From contig NZ_RHNO01000001.1 of the NCBI RefSeq assembly GCF_003946265.1, positions 62,001 to 126,000 on the forward strand: a stretch of DNA of 64,000 nucleotides, written 5' to 3'. The notes beneath the pieces were generated by a model. The model was not told the DNA's origin. It saw only the letters and a list, made by a program, of their open reading frames with translations, and did not search any database. A program made the position numbers and the translations under genes. The DNA comes from Levilactobacillus yonginensis (GTDB taxonomy: Bacteria > Bacillota > Bacilli > Lactobacillales > Lactobacillaceae). This document shows positions 3,501-16,067 of this stretch, piece after piece. Numbering within the stretch: position 1 is the first letter of the stretch; each line of letters opens with the position of its first letter.

Positions 3501-3980
3501 ATGAACATCAAGTTTGTGGTTGTGGGCAAATTGAAGGAAAAGTACTTCAAACAGGGCATCGCGGAGTATGCCAAAAGATTGTCGCGGTTCTGTAAATTTT
3601 CAATCGTCGAGGTCCCAGATGAAAAGGCACCAGAGAATTTGTCGCAGGCGGAGATGGATCAGGTCATGGCGGCAGAAGGCGAACGAATCTTGAGTAAGAT
3701 CAAGGACCGTGAATACGTCTACGCATTGGCCATCTTAGGCAAGGAACGCTCGTCGGAGGAGTTTGCCAAGGAACTGAAGGACTTGACCACGTACGGCCAC
3801 TCAGACATCACGTTCGTCATCGGGGGCTCATTGGGACTGACACCAGCCGTTCTGAAGCGTGCGGACGCCCAGATTTCGTTTGGCCGGTTCACGCTGCCTC
3901 ACCAGTTGATGCGGTTGGTGCTGACGGAACAGGTTTATCGGGCGTTTATGATTAATGAGGGGTCTCCGTATCATAAGTGA
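3501..3980 (+). CDS. rlmH: RlmH, 23S rRNA pseudouridine-1915 N3-methyltransferase
   Basis: This is a 159-aa SPOUT methyltransferase that modifies pseudouridine 1915 of 23S rRNA in assembled 70S ribosomes using S-adenosylmethionine. The cofactor-binding motif IGGSLG and the family C-terminus ending in SPYHK are present; length is normal. ATG 3501 is chosen because it follows AGGAGG closely; the frame opens 18 nt earlier. In staphylococci this gene is orfX, whose last codons are the integration site of SCC cassettes. Here too the last codons and stop (CCGTATCATAAGTGA) are repeated downstream, so the gene probably doubles as an attachment site. Confidence 0.96.
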
Positions 3981-3990
3981 TGCGGTTTTT
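3960..3990 (+). repeat. Site A: rlmH 3'-end attachment-like core
   Basis: The last rlmH codons and stop, with core CCGTATCATAAGT at 3966-3978 followed by GATGCGGTTTTT. Three similar sequences lie downstream (sites B, C, D). The sequence resembles the orfX-end site used by SCC integrases. Unlike the other copies, it lacks the TACGG arm because it is coding sequence. Confidence 0.75.
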
Positions 3991-4013
3991 CCTGGGATTA
4001 ATCGCTAAGTGGG

Positions 4014-4045
4014 TAGTTACGGGAGTCCGTATCATAAGTAAGTCG
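4014..4045 (+). repeat. Site B: attachment-like repeat with inverted arms
   Basis: Core CCGTATCATAAGT at 4027-4039, identical to site A, is preceded by TACGG four bases upstream, giving the dyad TACGG-N4-CCGTA. It lies 61 bp from site A, so it marks either a cassette end or a tiny remnant cassette. Confidence 0.7.
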
Positions 4046-4099
4046 AGCTATAGCCATGGAATTATGGAAAAGTATTTTTGATAAAAGGGGGTTACGTCA

Positions 4100-6313
4100 A
4101 TGAATAGGCATGAGAAGGTGTGGTATGACGAGTTCGATAACCTGGGATGTTTGGGTCAAGGGGGAAATGGGGATACATTCAGAGTAGTCGAAAAAAAATC
4201 TGGTAAAGAGTTTGCATTGAAAGAGCTTAGAGAGAAGAGTAAAGAGAAGAAGAGACGATTCGTCAGGGAAGTGGACTTGGTTTCTGAGTTTTCGTCATGT
4301 ATTGAAGGGATTATTCCAATATATAAATATTCAAAAGAGAATTTTTGGTATACCATGCCGATTGCAATTCCCATTGATAAATACATTCAGAAAGGGAATA
4401 AAGAGGTTGATGACATTGTATCTGGAATCATTCAAGTTGCCGAAACATTATGTAAATTACATTTGAATGGAATAAGTCATAGAGATGTAAAACCATTTAA
4501 TATTTATTTTTTTGACAATCAATATTACATAGGTGATTTAGGCTTAGCAGGTGATGAAAGAAACTTGGATGACGATACAAAGTCTGATAGAGCATTGGGC
4601 GCGATATTTACAATGGCGCCCGAAATGAAACGAAATCCTAAAGTGGCTGATGGAAAAAAAGCAGATGTTTTTTCATTGGCTAAAACGTTGTGGATGTTGT
4701 TAACTGGAGATACAAAGGGATTCGATGGTGTATACAATCCATCTGATCAAAGTTACGGATTGAAATATATATCAAAGTTCAAGGGAATGCATTTAGTCGA
4801 ATTAGAGGATTTGTTGAAAAGCGCTACAAATAATGATCCAGAAACGCGGCCAACGATGTTGGAATTTAAAGAATCCTTGAGTGAGTGGTTAGTTATTAAA
4901 AAGGACTTTGAGAAGTCTCAATTGAGTGATTGGAAAGCTATCAATAAACATTTATTTGGCACAAATAAAGTCGAATCAGTTGTGTGGAAAGATCTTCAAT
5001 CTATTATTAACACGATGAATGTATTAGGGGAATCACCAGTGTTTAATCATATGCTTTTTTCCGAAGGTGGTGGTCAGGATTTTACTAGAGTGACAAAGGC
5101 AAATGAACTAGGATGTATCTACTTATATGATGATAGTGGAACTGCTTCTGTAATAAAGCCTAAAGCACTATACTATGAGACCTTTGGAAATAGGTATTCG
5201 TGGAATTATTTTCTTTTAGAGGCCACTCCACTTAATTCAATTCTAGGGGATACAACGGAAGAAGGTTATGAGCGGCTTGTTGAAGATAAGTCAAATCCAG
5301 TGCATTACGTATCAGCTGCAGACGCTCAATATGGGGTTTATGATTACGATAGTGGGGATAAATTACCAGATGGGTACAAAGTTGTATATCGATACACAAC
5401 CGGGAAGTTTTTAATGGTTTTAAAAAATGGTCCGTACAATCAAATTTCAGGGACCTATGATGGTCGACATGGTATGTGTAATGAATGTGAATTTAGAAAG
5501 TATATTGAGAGTTTGGCGGATGTTACTGAGCGATTGGAGCAGCAGGGATATAAAAAAGAAGAAATTTTACGGCTTAAATATTTTGATATAAATCCTTTTG
5601 AGAAAAAAACTAGTGTAGGCAGGGATATAAAGGAGAAAGAAGATATAGATGCAGTGGCATCGTTTATTATCAATAACTATGAAGAATGGAATTTTAAGGA
5701 GATATTTGTAGCTAAGGATTGTACTCATGATTTGGCCTATGAATTTGAGTTCTATAAAGATTCAAATTTTCAGCTTAATAGGTACTTTATTAATGTGGAT
5801 GGCTTCATAGAATTAAATACGGGTAAGACAAAGAATTATGTAGTTTATAGTCGGTCTTCAGCGATTGAATTTCTGCAAAGATTAGAGGCTTTTCTAGAGA
5901 AAAAGTTTAAGGCTGGAGGCATGGTTAGCACACAGTTTAAATCCTATTTTAGACCAGTATTGAGAAAAGTTAGAAAGCCTCAGCACTTGTTTAATTTAGA
6001 GGAAGTAAAAGGTGCGATGAGAGGGGCGGATGATCGTGTAAATAATACGTTAGTTATCGATGAAAACGGGTATGTCAGTATTATTAAGAGAAATGAAAAT
6101 GTAGATCTATATCCTGTAAGGTTAGAGACTTGGATAGCTGGTAATAATTATGTTGGTAAGTATTCTAATTTAATAACGGCTGATGAAACGTATACAGCAT
6201 GTTTATCAGGCTGGCTTGATTTTTTGAAATCGGGAAAAGACAGCTTCGTGGATTATTTTTATACGGAATATAGCAATGAACAGCTGGTTAGCATGATTAA
6301 CAAGTATTACTGA
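4100..6313 (+). CDS. Ser/Thr protein kinase with long uncharacterised C-terminus
   Basis: The first ~270 of 737 residues form a eukaryote-like kinase domain. It has a glycine loop at 18-26, the ATP-binding Lys41 in ALKEL, the catalytic loop HRDVKPFN (127-134), DLG in place of DFG at 146-148, and APE at 173-175. The remaining ~460 residues match no family I recognise; they contain a CNEC pair (Cys460, Cys463) and no membrane segment, so the protein should be cytosolic and unlike the PASTA kinase PrkC/Stk1. ATG 4100 follows AAAAGGGGG at good spacing. The gene is strikingly AT-rich compared with the flanks and lies alone between attachment-like sites B and C, which points to horizontal acquisition. 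By analogy with staphylococcal Stk2, a phage-defence role is possible but unproven. Confidence 0.8.
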   Translation: MNRHEKVWYDEFDNLGCLGQGGNGDTFRVVEKKSGKEFALKELREKSKEKKRRFVREVDLVSEFSSCIEGIIPIYKYSKENFWYTMPIAIPIDKYIQKGNKEVDDIVSGIIQVAETLCKLHLNGISHRDVKPFNIYFFDNQYYIGDLGLAGDERNLDDDTKSDRALGAIFTMAPEMKRNPKVADGKKADVFSLAKTLWMLLTGDTKGFDGVYNPSDQSYGLKYISKFKGMHLVELEDLLKSATNNDPETRPTMLEFKESLSEWLVIKKDFEKSQLSDWKAINKHLFGTNKVESVVWKDLQSIINTMNVLGESPVFNHMLFSEGGGQDFTRVTKANELGCIYLYDDSGTASVIKPKALYYETFGNRYSWNYFLLEATPLNSILGDTTEEGYERLVEDKSNPVHYVSAADAQYGVYDYDSGDKLPDGYKVVYRYTTGKFLMVLKNGPYNQISGTYDGRHGMCNECEFRKYIESLADVTERLEQQGYKKEEILRLKYFDINPFEKKTSVGRDIKEKEDIDAVASFIINNYEEWNFKEIFVAKDCTHDLAYEFEFYKDSNFQLNRYFINVDGFIELNTGKTKNYVVYSRSSAIEFLQRLEAFLEKKFKAGGMVSTQFKSYFRPVLRKVRKPQHLFNLEEVKGAMRGADDRVNNTLVIDENGYVSIIKRNENVDLYPVRLETWIAGNNYVGKYSNLITADETYTACLSGWLDFLKSGKDSFVDYFYTEYSNEQLVSMINKYY

Positions 6314-6530
6314 TAATATGTAGTAATCAATTTTCAGATACTTGTTTGAGGGGTTCGACAAGCGGATATTAGTTTGATTAGGTTTTAACTTTTAACGTGA
6401 TGTAATCAAATAGATACCGTCCCCTTGAATGATGATAGGATTATTGTGGAAATTAGGAGTGTCTATGAATTATTATGACTATTTTAGAATCAGATCAAAT
6501 CAATTGATTGGGGGAATCGCAGAATAGTCT

Positions 6531-6562
6531 GTTACGGTTCTCCGTATCATAAGTGACGCGGT
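6531..6562 (+). repeat. Site C: attachment-like repeat with inverted arms
   Basis: Core CCGTATCATAAGT at 6542-6554 is followed by GACGCGGTTTT, close to the rlmH end, and preceded by TACGG-N4. It bounds the kinase segment on its right side. Confidence 0.75.
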
Positions 6563-6571
6563 TTTAGATAA

Positions 6572-6606
6572 AAATACCAGATAGTCGTCATATGACTGTC
6601 TGGTAT
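6572..6606. terminator. Hairpin next to site C
   Basis: TACCAGATAGTC pairs with GACTGTCTGGTA around a short loop, with A residues before and a weak T run after. A terminator for the kinase transcript is possible; the T run is poor. Confidence 0.4.
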
Positions 6607-6816
6607 TTACTAGTTATGCTCAGTTACGTAAGAACTACTTTTGAATATGTTTTCTAATGAGTTTTATGTACTTGATGATTTTTAAGTAGTATTTTTCACC
6701 TGAGTTGACACAAATAGTATGCTTAGAATTGTTTGTCTTTGATAGAGAAGGTTTCATTTTCTGTTCTATATGTGTCTTGAGCAGTTTGAATCGATTTGAT
6801 CAATGGTGTAAACGCT

Positions 6817-6869
6817 GAAATCCGTAGAATAGTAATTGCTCTTACAGCAGTTACTATTCTACGGATTTC
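6817..6869. repeat. Long 23-bp inverted repeat (7-nt loop)
   Basis: Arms 6817-6839 and 6847-6869 match in 22 of 23 positions around the loop TCTTACA. No T tract follows. It sits in the otherwise gene-poor stretch 6314-6922, where I see no convincing gene; it may be a mobile-element remnant or a structured RNA. Confidence 0.7.
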
Positions 6870-6922
6870 ATGGGGAATTCTCCGCTGTGGTAGAATTTCT
6901 TATCATAGACTTGTATTAATTA

Positions 6923-7324
6923 TCAGCGTCGGTACATTTGACTCCCCTTATAGCCAAGAGCATGGACAAATAGGTACAAATGCTTCTTTTTATCGTGATA
7001 GAACTTGTTCTTATAGAATTTCAGTTTTAAATTGTACACGGGCATATTATCTGCATATACTCGAATATGATTCTTACTGTATGTACGTGAAAAACCAACG
7101 CCAGCATATATAGAGCGGTCTGACAGATAGCCAGTTGACATGCTATGTTTGGTAAACCTTATCCAATCACCATCCCAGGTTCCTCATTTATGACGGTACT
7201 TTTTGGGAACGTACTTTACAACGTGGGAAGCAGATGCATTAGTGGAACCAGAATTTAGAGTAATTCCGGTTCCGAGTACAAGACCAAAGAGCATTAGGAA
7301 TACAAGTGTAGTTGTTTTTTTCAT
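6923..7324 (-). pseudogene. Small secreted protein, broken by an in-frame stop
   Basis: Read on the minus strand from ATG 7324 (ribosome site AGGAGG just upstream), the frame gives a signal peptide starting MKKTTTLVFLMLFGLVLG and ending near TNASA. It then reads YVPKKYRHK, a TGA stop, GTWDGDW, and continues in frame to the stop at 6923. Removing that one stop gives a ~133-aa basic secreted protein of the same style as those at 9480, 10152, 20808 and 42078 (PKxxR followed by an aromatic near the mature N-terminus). Function unknown. A nonsense mutation is the simplest reading. Confidence 0.7.
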
Positions 7325-7522
7325 AAAAATCCTCCTAGTTTACAGTTTTAGTATACAAGAGCTGGTAGCTTATTCAAGCGAGCAGTAGCAAGTTCTTTTC
7401 ATTATGATTGACCTAATGAAGATGAATTATCTGTGTTTTCAAATATATATTATTACCATGAAGACTTAGTATATCTTGTTATGCAATGGATTATAGGAAC
7501 ATAGAAAAGGGAGAATGATATT

Positions 7523-7675
7523 ATGACAGAATCAGCAGTGACAAGTCCTGTAAGTTTCAAACTTGAGGGGCCAGTGAAGTTCAATAAGGCAAAGACTCAT
7601 CGGTATGAGTTGAGAATTACGTGGAAGCAGCTAGCCAAGAAATTAGCGATGATCACTGACAATTTTGCCGGGTAG
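7523..7675 (+). pseudogene. Truncated 50-aa N-terminal fragment, DUF1643-like
   Basis: A good ribosome site (AAAAGGGAG) precedes ATG 7523. The product begins MTESAVTSPVSFKLEGPVK, contains KTHRYELRITW and KKLAMITDNF, then stops at tandem TAG codons. The pattern recalls the N-terminus of DUF1643 proteins, which are much longer and occur on many mobile islands; that assignment is from memory and tentative. The sequence then changes abruptly to the 3' end of the merR gene, suggesting a deletion or recombination junction near 7676-7719. Confidence 0.4.
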
Positions 7676-7719
7676 TAGTGATGGCATAGTCATGGATTTG
7701 ACGACAGTGCTTAAGTCGC

Positions 7720-8100
7720 TCACATCACCGCACTGTCTCCGGCTAAATACCGCTCAAGCTTATGATCTATCACTTTCAGCTGTTCCTGCTTATCAGCAAT
7801 CGCAGCGACGACTTGCTTACGCTGTTCACGCATTAATTCAATTCGTTGCGGTAAGCTGCTAGCGCCTTCACGTACTAAGGCGGTGTAGTGTTGCAACTCA
7901 ACGATTGACATGCCAGCTTCTCGCAAGTAATGTAAATTAGTTATCCAGTGTAGATCTTCATTATTAAAGACCCGTTGATTATTTTTATTACGTTTTTCTG
8001 GTGGTAATAAGTCACATTCTAAGTAATACCGGACTGTTCGAATAGTAACATTAGCGGTTTTCGCAAACTCACCGATTCGCATCAATTTATTATTAGCCAT
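7720..8100 (-). CDS. MerR-family transcriptional regulator
   Basis: A 126-aa regulator with an N-terminal winged helix (MRIGEFAKTANVTIRTVRYY), the conserved second half (RVFNNEDLHWI, LREAGMSI) and a C-terminal dimerisation coiled coil. No cysteine pair typical of metal sensors is visible, so it probably senses an organic compound or stress. ATG 8100 is chosen because GGGAGG lies just upstream; the frame continues into the intergenic region without a ribosome site. It is divergent from the dehydrogenase at 8165, whose promoter has the 19-bp spacer typical of MerR control. Confidence 0.88.
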   Translation of the reverse strand: MANNKLMRIGEFAKTANVTIRTVRYYLECDLLPPEKRNKNNQRVFNNEDLHWITNLHYLREAGMSIVELQHYTALVREGASSLPQRIELMREQRKQVVAAIADKQEQLKVIDHKLERYLAGDSAVM

Positions 8101-8106
8101 TTTGGC

Positions 8107-8137
8107 TTGACCTCCCGTTACGTTAGGCTGATATAGT
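8107..8137 (+). promoter_or_regulatory. MerR-type promoter with 19-bp spacer
   Basis: TTGACC (8107-8112) and TATAGT (8132-8137) are separated by exactly 19 bp. The spacer holds an imperfect dyad (CCTCCCG and CGTTAGG). The overlong spacing is the hallmark of MerR-activated promoters. It drives the gene at 8165 and overlaps the merR ribosome site, allowing autoregulation. Confidence 0.7.
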
Positions 8138-8164
8138 AGGTCCATCATAACAGAAAAGGAAGCT

Positions 8165-8881
8165 ATGGATATGACTATCAAGACATTAATTACTGGTGCT
8201 GATCGCGGGATGGGTTACGAATTAGCCCTAGAACTTGGTTTGAAAGGCCAGTTTATCTATGTTGGTTCTAGGAATTTAGCTCGGGGACAGGCCGCTGTTG
8301 CCCGGCTCAAGGCTGCTGGTGTTCAAGCTCAGGCGGTACAGTTAGACGTGACCGATCATGAGTCGATTGTTGACGCGAAAACGAGTATCACTAATTTAGA
8401 TATTTTAATCAATAACGCTGGGATTGCCGTTGATCATGAGACTAAGCCGTCAGAACTGTCACTAGACGCAATTCGGCAAGATTTTAACGTGAATTATTTC
8501 GGCTTGATTGACGTCACGCAGGTCTTCTTACCACTTTTGAAGGCAGCACCGGCTGGCCGGATTATCAATATCTCTAGTGCAGTGGGGTCATTGACTCTGG
8601 CCAGTGATGCCAATACCAGCATTCACAAGCTACAAGCATCAGGCTATCAGGCTTCCAAGTCAGCGGTCAATATGTTCACCGTCAAACTCGCCGCCGAACT
8701 TGAGGGAACGTCTGTCACGGTAAATGCCGTCAATCCTGGGTGGGTAGACACCAGTTTTGGTGGTGGCGGTGGTAATCGGACCGTGCAAGTGGGTGTGGCG
8801 CGGACTGTGGAATTGGCCACTTCTGATGCGTTAACTGATTCTGGCACGTTTTCGGATATTGATGGTATTGTGCCTTGGTAA
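8165..8881 (+). CDS. Short-chain dehydrogenase/reductase
   Basis: A 238-aa classical SDR: cofactor motif TGADRGMG near the N-terminus, the NNAG motif, the active-site Ser in ISSA and the catalytic pair in YQASK. It should be a soluble NAD(P)(H)-dependent oxidoreductase; substrate not predictable. ATG 8165 or the ATG two codons later could start it; AAAAGGA precedes both. It is the likely target of the divergent MerR regulator and the last intact gene before site D. Confidence 0.88.
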   Translation: MDMTIKTLITGADRGMGYELALELGLKGQFIYVGSRNLARGQAAVARLKAAGVQAQAVQLDVTDHESIVDAKTSITNLDILINNAGIAVDHETKPSELSLDAIRQDFNVNYFGLIDVTQVFLPLLKAAPAGRIINISSAVGSLTLASDANTSIHKLQASGYQASKSAVNMFTVKLAAELEGTSVTVNAVNPGWVDTSFGGGGGNRTVQVGVARTVELATSDALTDSGTFSDIDGIVPW

Positions 8882-8980
8882 CCTTTTTAAACGCCAGATG
8901 ATACCTGAAATCTAGAAGTTGGTTATCCGACCATTTATGTGGCATTAATTCCTTGCAATAATTTCAGTTCAAAACATATA

Positions 8981-9015
8981 AAAGAAGACTTAGCTTTTCG
9001 ACTAAGTCTTCTTTT
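8981..9015 (+). terminator. Terminator after the SDR gene
   Basis: AAAGAAGACTTAG pairs with CTAAGTCTTCTTT around a short loop, T-rich at the 3' side. The stretch 9016-9323 shows no gene or notable structure. Confidence 0.85.
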
Positions 9016-9323
9016 ATGCGTCGTGCAGGTTAGCTCGCTGCCAAGTATCCTGGTTTGTAGAATTGATCTGAACGCTGTTTTAATAAAATTCACCAATTCA
9101 TTTTAGATGATTAGTCAGGAATGTCTTAGTTTGATTATCCTCGTATATTTGCTAGAACCATCTTAGCTATCGCGTCAGAGTGCAGGTGCTTCAACTCCTT
9201 ACGAAATGAACAAGACTCGGTCATTCCTTAGATTGTTGCTATTGAGTTCTGCGTAATTTGAGGAGATCATGATTATGTTAGACTGAGTATTTTACTATAG
9301 GGTTAGGCAGATTTAAGCTGCCT

Positions 9324-9356
9324 GATACGGAGCACCGTGCCATAAGTGACGCAATT
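9324..9356 (+). repeat. Site D: diverged attachment-like repeat, outer boundary
   Basis: Core CCGTGCCATAAGT at 9335-9347, preceded by TACGG-N4 and followed by GACGCAATTTTT. The next ~30 bases (GATTAGTAGCTAAGCGG region) resemble those after site A (GATTAATCGCTAAGTGG). This suggests that D is the displaced original right flank of rlmH, or an older cassette end. Confidence 0.65.
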
Positions 9357-9439
9357 TTTCTTGCGATTAGTAGCTAAGCGGCGTTAGTGAGAGGCTATAA
9401 GGCAGAATAATCCTGAATTTAGAACTTTTAATATATAGA

Positions 9440-9479: not shown

Positions 9480-9854
9480 TTACTTGATATGCTTGAGCAC
9501 AGTAAATGAACCCTTTTTGAAGTGGGCACTGTAGCCATATTTACTAGTAAACTTATATTTGTGGGGGCTTTTTACTATAAACGCATAACCATCATGAGCG
9601 TAGTATGTAATTTTAACGACAGAGCCCTTATGTAAAGTGTAGTGCCCTGAAACCTTATTTAGATAGGCGTACTTTCCCTTTTTAATGCGGTCAACCCTGG
9701 TATTTTTTTTAATTTTCACTTTATAGAAACCGTCAGAATACTTCGTTTGCCATGCGGCTGCATGGGCTTCTTGAGCTGGATCGACAAGTGGTGCAAAAGC
9801 CGAAATTCCTAAGATGGCAGTCGCCGTAAGGGTAACTAATTTAATTTTTTTCAT
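9480..9854 (-). CDS. Small secreted basic protein, unknown function
   Basis: 124 aa with a clear signal peptide (MKKIKLVTLTATAILGISAF, cleavage near EAHAAA). The mature part of ~90 residues is Lys/Tyr-rich and probably beta-structured, with no LPxTG and no membrane anchor, so it should be released or held by charge. ATG 9854 follows GAGGAGG. No family recognised. It resembles in size and composition the secreted proteins at 10152, 20808 and 42078. Confidence 0.75.
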   Translation of the reverse strand: MKKIKLVTLTATAILGISAFAPLVDPAQEAHAAAWQTKYSDGFYKVKIKKNTRVDRIKKGKYAYLNKVSGHYTLHKGSVVKITYYAHDGYAFIVKSPHKYKFTSKYGYSAHFKKGSFTVLKHIK

Positions 9855-10151
9855 GGATAATCCTCCTCGTTGATAGTCTTAGTATACAAAATCTAGCTAA
9901 CTATTCAATCGGGAAATAACGTATGCCCTTATTGATAAACTACACCAATGAAACTGAGCTGTTCCTAAGCATTCAAATCCCAACGTTTATCCGAGTTGCT
10001 AGAATATAACAAGTGAACGGACGGGGGCTTTCCTGCGCGTCGTCCAACAATATCACAACCGAAAATTATTTATGTATTCCGACTGTTAACCCAGTGCTAT
10101 AATTATGATGTAATTGATGAATTAAACTATAGTCAATTGGAGGAATACATA

Positions 10152-10631
10152 ATGAAAGTTAAATATTTGGTTGCAGCGGCTGCCTTAAGTTTGGGCCTTG
10201 CCGGAGCGGTGACGACCTTTGATCAACCGGTCAATGCCGCAGCGAAGACGAAGCGGATTACGACCTACAAGACGATGCCTAAGGCTCTACGAGGGACTTG
10301 GCAAGAGAAGAGCTACTCTAAGTACAAGAAGGGTATCAAGGTTAGATGGAGCTATACTTTCAACAAAAACTCTTATTCCATGAGAATGGACTTTAAGGGT
10401 GGTCCTAGAAAGTCTAAAACCATTCATTTTCCTAAAAACCAAATTGGTGGCATGAACTATGACCACCACTACAAAGTGTATAACGTCTTTCCTGGCGGGT
10501 CATCGATTCCTAAGAGCAAGCTGCCCTATGCCGCTTACCTGACGTTTACTGCTGGTCGCCACAATGGAAAAAAGGCATTGGGACAACATGGCATTGCCGA
10601 TGATAAGATTACGTATTTCTACCGTAAATAA
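10152..10631 (+). CDS. Small secreted protein, PKxxRGTW type
   Basis: 159 aa: signal peptide ending near PVNAAA, then TYKTMPKALRGTWQEKSY and a Lys/Tyr-rich body. The PKALRGTW motif after the signal peptide recurs in spirit as PKSFRHNWYE (42078), PKVVRNRTY (20808) and PKKYRHK (pseudogene 6923), so I treat them as one loose secreted family. The start is ATG 10152 with TGGAGGAA upstream; the frame opens 15 nt earlier. Function unknown; lipocalin-like folds often open with a GTW motif, but this is not proof. Confidence 0.75.
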   Translation: MKVKYLVAAAALSLGLAGAVTTFDQPVNAAAKTKRITTYKTMPKALRGTWQEKSYSKYKKGIKVRWSYTFNKNSYSMRMDFKGGPRKSKTIHFPKNQIGGMNYDHHYKVYNVFPGGSSIPKSKLPYAAYLTFTAGRHNGKKALGQHGIADDKITYFYRK

Positions 10632-10686
10632 CCGACCACAGCTAGGCTAGCTACGTCAGTAAGTCTGGAATAATCTAAATACTCAC

Positions 10687-10722
10687 AGGAGGTCGTCTAA
10701 CAACGTTGGGCGACCTTTTTCC
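10687..10722 (+). terminator. Terminator after the 10152 gene
   Basis: AGGTCGTCTAAC pairs with GTTGGGCGACCT and is followed by T residues. From 10723 to 11108 I see only an AT-rich leader for the pilus operon, with a possible -35 TTGACA near 10955. Confidence 0.75.
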
Positions 10723-11108
10723 TGTCCTTAAGCATTATCAAGCGGCTCTACACAGGCTTTCATCTAAGTTATCCACGCAACTATCCCGTACAAGCCAATC
10801 AAGAAGCGAAAGAAATAATCAACGAAACCAGTCGCCAGTACCTCAAAACTCAGAACAATCGATTCCTAACTATCCCCGAAAACCCCATCTTTCCGCCAAA
10901 CGCCCCTACTTTATAGAAGCAACGCCACCCACAACTGTTCAATATATTTAGAGGTTGACATAATCGTTTTAGTATATAACACAACAACCTTGTTAATATT
11001 ATTATAAAATACATATGGTGTTCATAAGTTATTCACATTTCGTTGGTATTCTGAAATCACTCGAAAAAAGACAGAACGAAACCCACAGGGGATATGGAGG
11101 ATTACCGC

Positions 11109-13787
11109 ATGAAAAAACTATTACGAATTATTGCGATACTGGGATGTTTCCTTGGCTTGGCATCACTGCTACGGATTCAGGCGCAAAAGCGAGAAGACAT
11201 TATTAAAACGGCGGCCCTCCAAGACCAGGCGGGCAAAGTTGTTGAAAAGATTAGCAGTCACGACCCCCAGGAGCTACAGATGGCGTTGACCATCAAGCTA
11301 CCCACTGGGGAGACGATGATGACGTTAGCCGACCAGGACAACGTAAAGCTTAAGACCGGGGAAATCGTTGACCTGCAGCCTAACGAAGACATCACGGCAC
11401 GAGTTGACCAACAAAACCAACTCGTTATCCAAAACGACCGAGGCCGCGTAAAGAAAGTGAAGCTGGTCGTGCCAGTCGAAGTGACGAACCCACTACTGGT
11501 AGCCAAGCTACAACTGGACTTACACGTTGCCGACTCAAAAGAAACTTACACGCTTCCCGAAATCGCGGTTACGGCTGAGGAAACTAAGGAAGTCGCCGAA
11601 GAAAAGACCGAGGAATCAACGGAAGGTTTAGTTAAAGAACCAGCGGAAGACACGACTAAGGAATCAGCTACGAAAGTTCCTGAAAAATCCGCGAAGAAGA
11701 TGACCGAAGAAACTACTAAGGAAACTACTAAAGAAACGACCAAAGAAGTTACACCAGCGTCGGACACGACCAACGACACCAAGACGACTGACAAGCAACA
11801 ATCAAATTCACCAAAAGAGGGGCAAACAACGACCACCAGTGATCAACCAGCAACTACTAAGGAAGACACTGACGAAAAGGCAGCTAAGACGGCTACCACC
11901 ACTAAATCCACGATGGCCGCGGCGCCGACAGATGCGCTATCTGGCGCAAATATCGACGTTCACCGGGCGCAAATCCAGGTGGACAGCTGGTCAGACAGCC
12001 TAATTGTTGCTGGTTCACTGCCTGCTAAAGATAATGTGAACGTGTTAGAAAAGGAATTAGGCGTTAAGGGTATCATTTCAGGTGGTTACTACGGTGGAGA
12101 TAACTTTGATAACTTCGAAAAGCACTACCACCTATCCTACATGCGGAAGGGCGATGGCACGGGCACTGGAAATGGTGAAAAGGCCTACGCCGTGGCGGTT
12201 GACGGCGAGCCGACTAGTAATAAAACAGACGACATTCTAGTTTATTACCAAAACGTCGGGGCCTACACAGATTCAACAACGGCCGACAATCCAACGGAAC
12301 CAATGGGGGCCATTGTGAAAATCTCCAACATTCAGTACCATACAAAGATTACCGGCAAACCTAAAGATGGCAAGGCCTTCATTGATTTTTCCAACAACTT
12401 CTACTCTGGAATGGTCTACAACGGGATTGAGACCCTCGATATCGACGTGACGTTTACCACTTCTGACTGGAAGCAAGCGCTTGTTTTCCCACCACTTGAT
12501 GGTGACGGGGATGCTCGTAGCTACTTCACGTTTGGGTCACTGAACGGGAATACAGAAGGCGAACACGAATGGGCTGGTAGTCGATTGGAACTACCAGGAA
12601 AATTAGCGCCCAATGCCAAGATAGAAAAGCATGACGGTGGTTGGTACGAAGGTACCGGTATTGGAGTCGTTGATAAAGAAGAGTATGAACAGAAACGAAA
12701 AGAAGGCGATCCGCCAGCCGACTGGGGGGACTACCTCGGTTCTAGTGACTACGAATTAGGCGCCGTTTCCTTCCCACTGGTTGGGCGTGACCAACTATTC
12801 AAGTTAAAAAGTGAATCAGGCTTTACTTGGCAGTCCTTCTCTAGCGGCTACATCATGCCACTAGAGCAACCAGCACCACAAAAAAATGTTCACCGAGACA
12901 AAGAGTTGGGACTAGACAAGAACAATTTAGACGGCGTGACGATTGACCGGGACAATGACGACCAGAACAAGCTGTTCTACACGATTTACCAAAAGACCTA
13001 CAGTATTCCCAACGAATCAATCGCGAAACCGAATGAGATTATTTTTCGGGACAAATTGCCAGCTGGCGTAACTGTTGCAGATGGTGGCTTTCGACTATTC
13101 AACACGGATGGCGGAAAAATGGAGCCGTTGACTGGTGATCTCGAAATTACCCCTGAAGGCAAAATCACGTACAAGTTCTCTGAAAAAGAAATTGAAGAGT
13201 TGAAATTTGACGGTGGCCACTTCGCAGTTCAAATAGAAACGAAGATCGGTAACGACTTTGTCGGAACCCTTAAGAATCGAGCTAGCATCGAATTCAACTC
13301 TGGTGAGAAGCACAGATGGCGGAAACGCACGAACAAAGTGGTAACCCATTTCATCCGGGGCAGTTACGAGTTCCAGAAGGTCGATGGCACCACTGGCAAG
13401 GCCCTCGCCGGCTCCACGTTTATCATTCAAAACGCGGATGGCAAGTACCTGACCTTTGATGGCAACAATCACCAAACTGGATTAGTCGCTCTGAAATCAC
13501 GGGCGACCCGCCTGCAGGGCGACAGCGACGGCAACTTTAAGGTCGCCGGCCTCGCGAAAGGCACGTACAAGTTAATTGAAACTAAAGCGCCCGATGGCTA
13601 TGTAATCGGGAAGCCAACTGAATTCACCATTTCTGGTAAGGTTCAGACCACACCAACGCAAATTGAAAATGACCCGTACAGTCTTCCCGTAACCGGGGGG
13701 CAAGGAATCTTCTGGTTCATTGTCGTTGGGCTCATACTCACCCTATCGTCTCTCGCCATTTGGCGCACTTACCCTAGAGGAGGATAA
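11109..13787 (+). CDS. Pilus tip/ancillary adhesin, LPxTG anchored
   Basis: An 892-aa surface protein. It has an N-terminal hydrophobic export segment, a Lys/Glu/Thr-rich linker with TKET repeats (about 155-280), and a large adhesin-like region. Near the end is a Cna_B/SpaA-type domain (FQKVDGTTGKALAGSTF ... YKLIETKAPDGY). The sorting signal LPVTG is at 859-863, followed by a hydrophobic stretch and a basic tail. First gene of a four-gene pilus operon; the next gene starts 3 nt after its stop. ATG 11109 follows ATGGAGG. Role as tip or ancillary pilin is inferred from gene order, size and lack of a pilin-motif lysine that I can recognise. Confidence 0.85.
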   Translation: MKKLLRIIAILGCFLGLASLLRIQAQKREDIIKTAALQDQAGKVVEKISSHDPQELQMALTIKLPTGETMMTLADQDNVKLKTGEIVDLQPNEDITARVDQQNQLVIQNDRGRVKKVKLVVPVEVTNPLLVAKLQLDLHVADSKETYTLPEIAVTAEETKEVAEEKTEESTEGLVKEPAEDTTKESATKVPEKSAKKMTEETTKETTKETTKEVTPASDTTNDTKTTDKQQSNSPKEGQTTTTSDQPATTKEDTDEKAAKTATTTKSTMAAAPTDALSGANIDVHRAQIQVDSWSDSLIVAGSLPAKDNVNVLEKELGVKGIISGGYYGGDNFDNFEKHYHLSYMRKGDGTGTGNGEKAYAVAVDGEPTSNKTDDILVYYQNVGAYTDSTTADNPTEPMGAIVKISNIQYHTKITGKPKDGKAFIDFSNNFYSGMVYNGIETLDIDVTFTTSDWKQALVFPPLDGDGDARSYFTFGSLNGNTEGEHEWAGSRLELPGKLAPNAKIEKHDGGWYEGTGIGVVDKEEYEQKRKEGDPPADWGDYLGSSDYELGAVSFPLVGRDQLFKLKSESGFTWQSFSSGYIMPLEQPAPQKNVHRDKELGLDKNNLDGVTIDRDNDDQNKLFYTIYQKTYSIPNESIAKPNEIIFRDKLPAGVTVADGGFRLFNTDGGKMEPLTGDLEITPEGKITYKFSEKEIEELKFDGGHFAVQIETKIGNDFVGTLKNRASIEFNSGEKHRWRKRTNKVVTHFIRGSYEFQKVDGTTGKALAGSTFIIQNADGKYLTFDGNNHQTGLVALKSRATRLQGDSDGNFKVAGLAKGTYKLIETKAPDGYVIGKPTEFTISGKVQTTPTQIENDPYSLPVTGGQGIFWFIVVGLILTLSSLAIWRTYPRGG

Positions 13788-13790
13788 CCC

Positions 13791-15242
13791 ATGAAATTCA
13801 CTAAAATTAGACAGCTGGTGCTCGCGACCTTCGCCGTTTGTGGCTTGGCGCTAGGCGGTCGGGCCGTTGCCCACGCCAGCACGCAAGCGCCAAGCACGGT
13901 CACCATGGAACTGCACAAGCTAGACAACAACTCGGAGGATCAAACGACAGAAACGATCAAGAACACTGGGGATGAAGTTTCCCTGCCAACTGGCGTGATA
14001 CCTTACGACGCTGACAAGTACGGTAAGGTCACCTATAGTGTTTATGACTTGACCGACGTGATGAAACAGCGGGGCATCATCAGTGGCGAAGTAACTAGCG
14101 AAGCCTTTGAAGCCGCCCGGACCCAGCTACTGAAAGATATTACAGATGATCAGACTGATCCAAAGGCCTTACTCGCCGCCCAGGAAGCCTTCGTGAAGGC
14201 CAACGGGTTAACCAGCATTGCTGATAAAACGTTGGAAGGCCAGTCTAGTTCCCTAACTTTTCCTGGCATCCGCAACAGCGGCTTCTACCTGATCATGGAA
14301 ACGGTCGCCCCGACGCACCATTTGACGAAGCTGTCGGCGCCCCTGATCATCGGGTTACCGTTGAGTGACAAGGCGACCATTCACCTGTACCCCAAGAACC
14401 TGATCGCCCGGGATGTCGACCCTGAGATCCACAAGGTGGGACGTAACCCTGAAAATCCGACCAGTAAGACATACCTGCCATTAGGCAAGGTGGAATTCAC
14501 CCTGGCACAGAAGAATGGCGAAGGTGAAGTACGGACCCTGAAGACCGACAAAAACGGGGACATCGAGTTTGGTGGCCTGGAAGTCGGAATCGAGTACGTG
14601 TTAACTGAGTCAGCTAACAAGCGCTACCCGTGGTACCAACAAGCGGATACCAAGAAGCACAAACTATCATTGACCTTTACGGTTGATAAGGACGGCAACA
14701 TCAAAGCACTCAAAACGTTGCCAAATAGAGCCCACTTTGACATCCAGGGCACGCGAATCGGAATCAAAAACGACCTGATTCTCGGGGGCGCCGAATTCAA
14801 GAAGGTGGACGCGCAGACCGAGAAAGGCTTAGCCGGAGCGAAGTTTAAGGTCCAAAAGATCAGCCCAAAGGGCAAAACTTACTGGGCCGTCTTCAAAGGC
14901 AAGACCTTCGTGAAATGGGTGACGAGCAAGGCCGCCGCGACTGAATTAACGTCCGCAGAGGATGGGACCTTTGACTTCACCGGCGTCCCTTACGTGTATG
15001 ACCAACGGCATGGCAAGGTGACCTACAACTTGGTTGAAACGCAAGCCCCCGCGGGTTACGCGTTGTTGAAGGAAGCGACACCATTTGAAATTAATGAAGA
15101 AACAAATATCCAGACGATCAAAAACGAAAGCTACGCCCTCCCAACCACTGGGGGGATGGGTATCTGGCTATTCCTCCTCATCGGGAGTCTCCTGATGGGT
15201 GGCGCCGGTTACCTCTACTACCGACAACGGAAGGCGGCCTAA
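13791..15242 (+). CDS. Major (backbone) pilin
   Basis: 483 aa with a signal peptide (cleavage near AHAS), the pilin motif YPKN with Lys202 as the likely polymerising residue, and two Cna_B-type domains. An E-box-like VETQAPAGY precedes the sorting signal LPTTG at 450-454, followed by a hydrophobic segment and a basic tail. Backbone pilins of SpaA type are joined by isopeptide bonds between this Lys and the LPxTG Thr of the next subunit, catalysed by the class C sortase encoded just downstream. Confidence 0.92.
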   Translation: MKFTKIRQLVLATFAVCGLALGGRAVAHASTQAPSTVTMELHKLDNNSEDQTTETIKNTGDEVSLPTGVIPYDADKYGKVTYSVYDLTDVMKQRGIISGEVTSEAFEAARTQLLKDITDDQTDPKALLAAQEAFVKANGLTSIADKTLEGQSSSLTFPGIRNSGFYLIMETVAPTHHLTKLSAPLIIGLPLSDKATIHLYPKNLIARDVDPEIHKVGRNPENPTSKTYLPLGKVEFTLAQKNGEGEVRTLKTDKNGDIEFGGLEVGIEYVLTESANKRYPWYQQADTKKHKLSLTFTVDKDGNIKALKTLPNRAHFDIQGTRIGIKNDLILGGAEFKKVDAQTEKGLAGAKFKVQKISPKGKTYWAVFKGKTFVKWVTSKAAATELTSAEDGTFDFTGVPYVYDQRHGKVTYNLVETQAPAGYALLKEATPFEINEETNIQTIKNESYALPTTGGMGIWLFLLIGSLLMGGAGYLYYRQRKAA

Positions 15243-15284
15243 CTGGTTAGCCACTTAGACAATTAGAGAAGGGAGGACCTCCAC

Positions 15285-16067
15285 ATGCGTAAATGGCTAG
15301 TGATTCTGCTATGTTGTTTCGGCTTAGGCCTGATTGCCTACCCAGCCGCCAGTAACCTGGTGATTGGTTGGCGTCAGCAGGGGGTCCTGGTGGCGTATAA
15401 GAACCAGTTACGGACGGCGAGTACTAGGCAGCGAAAAGCACTCCAACGGTCCTTACAGCGGCAGGCAAGGGATACTCGGACCACCCTCTATAACCCGTTC
15501 AAACAGGAAAATGATCGGTTCATGGGGACGCCCCCTCTAGCGTTAGTGGCGATTCCCACGATCAACGTGGAACTTCCGGTGTTTGCCGGAACCAGTGACC
15601 CCGTTTTACAGAAATATGCGGGGCTGGTTCACGGGACGGACGTTCCTCAGGGCAAACGTAACCAGCACAGTCTGATTACGGCTCACCGGGGATCACCCAA
15701 CGCGACCCTGTTCACGGACCTACCGCGGTTACAACGGGGCGACCATTTCTATCTGAAGAATGCGTACGGGTTGATGACCTATCGGGTGACGAACATTCGG
15801 ACTGTGAAGGCGGCCACGCGTCAGCCAATCCTGCGGGACACGGCCAAGAATCAGGTGACGCTGATGACGTGTACGCCGTATATGATCAATACCCACCGGC
15901 TCTTGGTAACGGGCCACCGAATTCCGAACGAAACTAAGACGATTCCGCAAGGGAAGATGGTGTGGGACTGGTACAAGATTATCTTGTTGGTAATTGGAGC
16001 ACTCCTGTTGATTGGCGGCACGTGGGCCGGTTACCGGCGATTCAGACAAGCAAGGGAGGGCAACTAA
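15285..16067 (+). CDS. srtC: Class C (pilin-polymerising) sortase
   Basis: 260 aa with an N-terminal membrane segment, catalytic TAHRG (His) and TCTPY (Cys), the Arg downstream, and a C-terminal membrane helix typical of class C. The lid before the domain reads NPF where class C enzymes usually carry DPW/DPF, which may alter gating. It should polymerise the backbone pilin at 13791. GGGAGG lies upstream of ATG 15285. Confidence 0.93.
   Translation: MRKWLVILLCCFGLGLIAYPAASNLVIGWRQQGVLVAYKNQLRTASTRQRKALQRSLQRQARDTRTTLYNPFKQENDRFMGTPPLALVAIPTINVELPVFAGTSDPVLQKYAGLVHGTDVPQGKRNQHSLITAHRGSPNATLFTDLPRLQRGDHFYLKNAYGLMTYRVTNIRTVKAATRQPILRDTAKNQVTLMTCTPYMINTHRLLVTGHRIPNETKTIPQGKMVWDWYKIILLVIGALLLIGGTWAGYRRFRQAREGN

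Follow-up and report, generated by a model that had tools for sequence, protein, structure and literature searches.

The question raised by this locus is why the end of one gene, rlmH, recurs downstream of that gene in a 64,000-nucleotide stretch of the Levilactobacillus yonginensis contig NZ_RHNO01000001.1 (positions 62,001 to 126,000; this whole stretch is hereafter called the window). An initial annotation made from the letters alone proposed an island resembling the staphylococcal cassette chromosome (SCC), consisting of stacked cassettes that are either mobilised in trans or remnants. Comparison with related genomes supports and extends this likeness, since relatives of ccr genes are found at rlmH between such sites elsewhere in the genus. 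Positions 3966 to about 9900 very probably represent a composite cassette-chromosome array that large serine recombinases of the CcrAB type assembled behind rlmH, using its 3' end as their target. The stacking of cassettes is well supported, the more distal segments look like remnants, and mobilisation in trans may apply to the segment that carries a kinase gene.

The four attachment (att)-like repeats, called A to D, lie exactly where they were first placed. The core CCGTATCATAAGT is perfect at 3966 (A), 4027 (B) and 6542 (C) and has two mismatches at 9335 (D); the perfect core occurs three times in the whole genome, always at this locus. A left arm stands four bases before the core in B, C and D and is lacking in A, the copy that belongs to rlmH. 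The complete dyad TACGG-N4-CCGTA had been attributed to all three downstream copies, which holds at 4027 and 6542 but not at 9335, which has TGATACGG as its left arm and a degraded right arm (CCGTG). The motif TATCATAA is intact in A, B and C; D reads TGCCATAA and keeps the C whose essential role is described in the cited part of PMC6222049. As in known cassette chromosomes, insertion at the 3' end has left rlmH intact with its gene end repeated, and an inverted repeat, though degenerate at D, marks the sites outside the gene.

This asymmetry between gene and downstream sites extends across the genus. The RlmH protein of the window has matches of 92-100% identity in 34 of the 35 Levilactobacillus genomes, its own included (the match in G005 is in two pieces), and is the same in L. 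tongjiangensis; among the 35, a match is absent solely from G008, a genome that is 72% complete. Only three of eight arm positions match in each of the 34 genus rlmH copies examined. At least five of eight match in 33 of 39 downstream sites, a count biased in favour of these sites because they were chosen by a model that includes the arm.

Care must be taken with the weight given to short sequence matches. With up to three mismatches, the core alone has 19 matches in the window versus 14.7 expected, and with up to two mismatches it has 55 in the genome versus 58 for the reversed pattern. Because the mismatched core is no commoner than chance, it was rejected as evidence for D, which rests instead on its wider context. 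A 36-bp site model built from 25 downstream sites of other genomes scores C at 54.4, A at 42.0, D at 33.6 and B at 25.7; the best place in the 64 kb outside these four sites scores -1.9, and the maximum in 60 random (Markov-1) windows is 19.0. The sequence after D is also related to that after A, as had been noticed initially, with 79% identity over 47 bp that include the core of D.

The pattern used to pick the 25 sites came from the window itself, which makes the model partly dependent on it, and the scan was therefore repeated with each genome left out in turn (threshold 15 bits; 28 sites, with the three downstream sites of the window added). Across 1.08 Mb downstream of rlmH in 91 sequences, all of the 52 sites found are on the rlmH strand, and 0.71 Mb upstream of rlmH (72 of 80 named loci) yielded none on either strand. 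The random maximum is exceeded by 48 of the 52, the four lower ones being in loci L142, L147, L086 and L104; two of the 52 come from a record that is present twice (L070 = L137). Of 34 Levilactobacillus regions, 24, including that of the window, have one or more downstream sites (23 above 19.0), and these share the strand of rlmH without exception. In three of these (L128, L150 and L156) the only downstream site is a second core directly after rlmH. Outside the genus, such sites occur in six of 49 regions of a general set (L070 left out) and in four of seven chosen ones. No relative examined keeps all four repeats at the spacing seen in the window.

Homology between relatives breaks at the core. 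The alignment of L155 with L156 extends 13 bases beyond the rlmH stop; the rlmH end of L156 also matches L155 at the distal site of the latter (3310). Between L145 and L146, and likewise between L154 and L155, homology ends one base past the stop. Beyond what the initial annotation had recognised, the 61-bp unit that separates the starts of A and B is itself conserved. A search of 91 regions, plus a duplicate and two short ones, places it directly after rlmH in 11 other genomes (two partial) and at the distal site in nine, one of which, in Paucilactobacillus (L092), has a degenerate first core; L142 and L145 have it in both positions. Two origins are conceivable for this unit: it may be the target's own right-hand side, with a second built-in site, or a cassette without cargo.

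No ccr-type recombinase had been seen between the repeats, and the window's whole genome likewise contains no PF07508 protein and no Cch that could be found. Three small resolvases of this genome (PF00239; all eight candidates scored) were considered as movers and rejected, because their frames of 181-197 aa, on other contigs, are too short for large serine recombinases. Proteins with PF07508 occur in two of the 35 genus genomes, those of L. huananensis (G012, L142) and L. brevis CD0817 (G031, L143). In each of them, a DUF927/Cch-type helicase precedes an adjacent pair of large serine recombinases that resemble CcrA and CcrB, with 443 and 542 residues in L142, where the frames are open, and 461 and 490 in L143; the best match of the L142 helicase among solved structures is 5dgk, an 'active helicase'. 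CcrB lies 8.4 kb (L142) or 9.4 kb (L143) downstream of rlmH, and the module is placed between att sites that are 46 and 10,936 bases (L142) or 45 and 13,512 bases (L143) from the rlmH end.

The association of these recombinases with rlmH is not confined to the genus. A search of 397 Lactobacillaceae genomes with CcrB of L142 gave 30 matches at 1e-20. The seven strongest, with E below 1e-90, are all found 4.9-12.3 kb downstream of rlmH and share its strand, and an eighth, a broken fragment in G278, lies 2 kb downstream; among the 22 weaker matches, eight share a contig with rlmH but are distant from it, and for the 14 that sit on a different contig proximity cannot be assessed. Of the five genomes outside Levilactobacillus with a strong CcrB, three (L222, L223 and L224) have a downstream site according to the att model. 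Across the order, 20 of 395 genomes have a match at 1e-80, none of them above the curated cut-off. Three of the 20 are on a contig other than that of rlmH, and 17 fall within 26 kb downstream of an rlmH, three of these in the opposite orientation and one beside a second rlmH copy. A plasmid source for the lactobacillus CcrB was also considered and rejected, because the plasmid collection yielded four records at 1e-60, three from Staphylococcus and one from Paenibacillus.

By analogy with SCC and with the Enterococcus cassette chromosome (ECC) as described in the cited parts of PMC6222049 and PMC10061031, CcrAB would join the rlmH end, an attB without a left arm, to the dyad site of a circular cassette. 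The outcome would be an intact rlmH with attL and, at the far end, an attR with the dyad, and later cassettes would stack in the same orientation. An arm that is confined to downstream sites, a single orientation, an intact rlmH and stacking all fit such a mechanism, and we infer that the CcrAB proteins of relatives act on these sites. In this scheme, B-C would be a kinase cassette without a recombinase, and C-D would hold a MerR/SDR pair flanked by scraps from the two ends of a ccr-bearing cassette, with a further left-end scrap after D. Because the genome lacks a recombinase, excision or exchange would need CcrAB from another cassette, and the array would be either frozen or awaiting a helper. 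With its intact kinase frame and two perfect cores, B-C could still be mobilisable in trans.

Features of the rlmH locus in the window (positions are those of the window).
Feature	Coordinates	Strand	Description
rlmH	3501..3980	+	SPOUT methyltransferase of 159 aa (Pfam PF02590, 8.7e-58); integration target; last codons form site A
Site A	3966..3978	+	Core CCGTATCATAAGT within rlmH end; attL/attB-type, without left dyad arm
Conserved core-to-core unit	3966..4039	+	In relatives adjoins rlmH or the distal att site
Site B	4018..4039	+	Dyad TACGG-N4-CCGTATCATAAGT; left end of kinase cassette
Kinase gene	4100..6313	+	Cargo of B-C, its sole intact gene; 737-aa protein with Ser/Thr kinase domain; 35% G+C
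Site C with left flank	6498..6554	+	att dyad at 6533-6554; flank common to att sites of relatives
Secreted-protein N-terminus relic (weak)	6777..6848	-	tblastn 67% over 24 aa, E 1.4e-4
Small secreted-protein gene	6923..7324	-	Broken by one in-frame stop
DUF1643 gene relic	7476..7711	+	5' part only; 84% nt identity to L142, 83% to L143
MerR regulator	7720..8103	-	With SDR, cargo common to several species at this locus
SDR oxidoreductase	8165..8881	+	Pairs with MerR (pair spans 7720..8881)
ccr-cassette right-end relic	9093..9328	+	81% to L142, 79% to L143, 76% to L149
Site D	9323..9347	+	Degenerate att dyad TGATACGG-N4-CCGTGCCATAAGT
Core-to-core unit relic after D	9348..9381	+	Related to sequence after A
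Secreted-protein gene with upstream DNA	9480..9892	-	124-aa protein; homologous to left end of ccr cassettes

The segment B-C comprises 2.5 kb with 35% G+C, versus 51% upstream and 49% downstream. The best PADLOC matches of its kinase are mad6, PD-T4-6 and Stk2, the matches shown covering residues 1-287 of 737 (the kinase domain), and the score against the NCBIfam family MADS6 is 52.6 of 460 bits. No relatives were found in the other 34 genus genomes at 1e-20 or in 396 other Lactobacillaceae genomes at 1e-40. The plasmid collection provided 11 records, the seven best of which show 35-39% identity over at most 63% of the protein, and three neighbourhoods of relatives that were examined share no consistent partner gene. 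The kinase may be a defence gene. At its distal border, the flank of site C has 78-88% matches at the att sites of L126, L130, L142, L143, L151 and L155.

The contents of C-D follow the order of a ccr cassette, namely left-end relics, the start of a DUF1643 gene, MerR/SDR and a right-end relic, which suggests that this segment is one decayed ccr cassette. The reference for the weak relic at 6777-6848 was a 124-aa secreted protein located at the left end of ccr cassettes. The DNA upstream of the broken secreted-protein gene (7331-7476) resembles that same end, with 82% identity to L142 and 78% to L143, and 7019-7476 is 80% identical to L129. The DUF1643 relic retains 80% aa identity over the first 50 of 186 residues, and its L142 counterpart lies in the left part of the ccr cassette; the L142 match of the right-end relic begins about 265 bp past the ccrB stop. 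Cassette-like DNA, which had not been noticed initially past D, continues to about 9900. Its secreted-protein gene is 69% identical to the L142 protein, and the nucleotides are 71-72% identical to L142 and L143. Collinearity with two near relatives returns at 9932 (L146) and 9963 (L145). Like C-D, the DNA after D looks like a remnant. Judging from its alignment, L149 (L. suantsaiihabitans) is a precedent for such decay with the ends retained, since it aligns to L142 at 561-2419 and 10,213-10,956, the helicase and both recombinases being gone.

A number of observations weigh against a CcrAB-built array. No ccr gene lies inside the element, and a CcrB relative was not detected in the window's genome at 1e-20 (three of four candidates scored). 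The CcrB of L. brevis CD0817 (L143:9910-11382) is shortened by a stop with the last ~60 residues behind it, and the recombinase of that element may be impaired. The NCBIfam models closest to the L142 proteins are the staphylococcal CcrB, CcrA and Cch1 (NF047343, NF047344 and NF047345 are the families used), but the scores (CcrB 536 of 900 bits, CcrA 160 of 700, Cch 214 of 700) fall below the curated cut-offs, so these proteins are homologues rather than members of the staphylococcal Ccr and Cch families. Downstream sites are missing from ten of the 34 genus regions, three of which are represented by less than 4 kb, and the att model finds none in two strong-CcrB loci outside the genus, L221 (whose contig ends 8.5 kb past rlmH) and L225. 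The MerR/SDR pair is located just outside the distal att site in L126, L142, L145, L155 and L157 but between C and D in the window, so that two partial events flanking a resident pair could have produced C-D. In the window the right-end scrap ends at D, whereas about 360 bp separate the equivalent sequence from the att core in L142, L143 and L149. Also, with one genome per species, the comparison set offers no same-species empty site.

Other explanations must be judged by the same evidence. Tandem duplication of the rlmH end, with the variable DNA moved by homologous recombination in conserved flanks and without any site-specific recombinase, would account for the longer pieces of the rlmH end that lie elsewhere in some relatives (G009, G012, G013, G016 and G020) and for the inclusion of the rlmH end in the block common to L151 and L155. 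Such a process is improbable, however, given that the left arm belongs to the downstream sites and not to the gene, that homology breaks at the core, and that ccrAB-like genes lie between such sites. Short inverted repeats after a gene end could also be transcription terminators, or members of a small repeat family unrelated to integration. We give this explanation hardly any credence, because the exact copies in the genome are found at rlmH only, and the sites have a single orientation, stand kilobases apart around variable DNA and are common to elements that encode recombinases.

Whether the array is dead is a sub-question that does not exclude its construction by CcrAB. In that case it would have arisen as described and now consist of decayed old integrations in which no substrate remains. 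The failure to find a recombinase in the genome, the broken genes of C-D and the degenerate site D are all in keeping with this possibility, to which we assign a little less than an even chance. Against it stand the perfect cores of A, B and C, the 5-bp arms of B and C and the kinase frame, which is open over its full length and whose low G+C relative to both flanks (49-51%) fits a recent arrival.

The ccr-less att-bounded segments of relatives measure 1.6-6.4 kb; usual SCC elements are larger. In 18 genomes, a census of the DNA bounded by att sites, with the ccr modules of L142 and L143 counted in, gave 76 frames that reach 120 aa or more, of which 20 chosen by size were scanned with PADLOC and Pfam and 10 more, from L136 and L137, with Pfam only. 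Defence-like cargo was found in L130 (an AriA/OLD-like ATPase by PADLOC), L145 (a SIR2-like protein with a DEDDh exonuclease), L151 and L155 (SIR2-HerA by PADLOC) and L157. In the last of these, an AAA_13 protein (PADLOC PDC-S06) and a Schlafen/AlbA protein (Pfam) lie side by side (L157:668-2941 and 3545-4852) and possibly form one defence system. Among these 30 frames defence is common, but it was rejected as the sole purpose of the cassettes, because regulators, transporters or enzymes (hydrolases, oxidoreductases) are carried by L126, L133, L134, L136, L137 and L154. L153 carries a transposase. At the limits used, no PADLOC or Pfam match was obtained for the single genes scanned from L146 and L160 or for one gene each of L153 and L136.

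Two comparisons bear on movement between species. The MerR/SDR pair is present in 11 of 33 relatives' regions (blastn). Among 26 named loci, seven of which have the pair, six species match the window's copy at 88-94% identity, against only 79-83% for the DNA immediately upstream of rlmH; in the near relative L. tongjiangensis, both are 95-96% identical. Similarly, the SIR2-HerA cassettes of L151 and L155 are 90% identical together with the rlmH end, versus 64-70% for the DNA beyond. A bolder idea, which we regard as doubtful though worth stating, is that the rlmH end of Levilactobacillus serves as an integron-like platform, where short one-module cassettes without recombinases, often carrying a single defence system, are shuffled between species by the CcrAB of a few strains. 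If so, the recombinase would be owned by the population and not by the strain.

Parallels for most features exist in described elements. The cited part of PMC10061031 reports for SCC and SCCmec the rlmH 3' end as target, the repeated gene end, degenerate inverted repeats, tandem stacking and a helicase ahead of the recombinases, as in the ccr elements of Levilactobacillus, and that of PMC6222049 reports the TATCATAA motif. PMC3637587 reports a mecA region without ccr in S. haemolyticus, a parallel to the array described here. Differences from SCC are the host, which belongs to the Lactobacillaceae, the divergence of the Ccr and Cch homologues, which score below the NCBIfam cut-offs, and the lactobacillus CcrB, which is 43% identical to copies on Staphylococcus plasmids. 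In layout, att-bounded segments at rlmH without ccr resemble composite or pseudo-SCC elements. The name pseudo-SCC is reserved for staphylococci.

For ECC, the pertinent part of PMC6222049 describes the same target and the TATCATAA core, with inverted repeats present in both attR and attECC; 16 of the 32 elements have more than one attR, and a recipient strain has a remnant. These elements differ from the array in the window in that they average 42 kb, were recognised by their ccrAB genes and have been demonstrated to transfer and to form circles (PMC6222049). Islands with PolA-SSB primases at rlmH in other Bacillota, according to the cited passages of PMC10061031, also have a large serine recombinase, a helicase, composite stacks and a repeat of the last ~12 bp of rlmH; the Levilactobacillus helicase differs in being of the DUF927/Cch type. 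SCC-like rlmH islands are listed in the cited part of PMC10581047 for Mammaliicoccus, Macrococcus, E. faecium, B. cereus, Geobacillus vulcani and C. difficile, although PMC10061031 (cited part) places the C. difficile example in ssrA. No description of SCC-like or cassette-chromosome elements in Lactobacillaceae appeared among the matches listed in the open-access literature, and the enterococcal ccrAB paper PMC3068701 has no word beginning with Lactobac. As far as searched, a known type of element thereby gains a new family of hosts, the Lactobacillaceae.

Cassette chromosomes owe their prominence to the methicillin resistance that they carry in staphylococci. Food lactobacilli share the target, the ends and the recombinase family, which, along with the order-wide linkage of CcrB to rlmH, suggests a wider exchange system of which SCCmec is one branch and whose cargo would include modules for defence and metabolism. 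Being easy and safe to handle, lactobacilli would be a good place to study cassette movement, recombinase loss and helper dependence.

Some minor observations concern rlmH itself and the neighbouring DNA. A second rlmH copy with ccrB behind it lies at 745437-745889 of G633 C1, and L. humaensis has a diverged second rlmH-like gene or pseudogene with 35% identity (L055:14480-14800). Truncated second copies of the rlmH 3' part, ~70-170 bp in length, occur downstream of rlmH or on other contigs (L142:4723-4824; L157:5924-5992; G016 C65:109016-109183; G009 C35:6070-6162; G013 C9:884-970); being longer than the att core, they may be chromosome ends captured from other strains. After the array, at 11094-16067 of the window, translations inspected by eye reveal two LPXTG-type cell-wall proteins followed by a sortase-like gene, a possible pilus operon.

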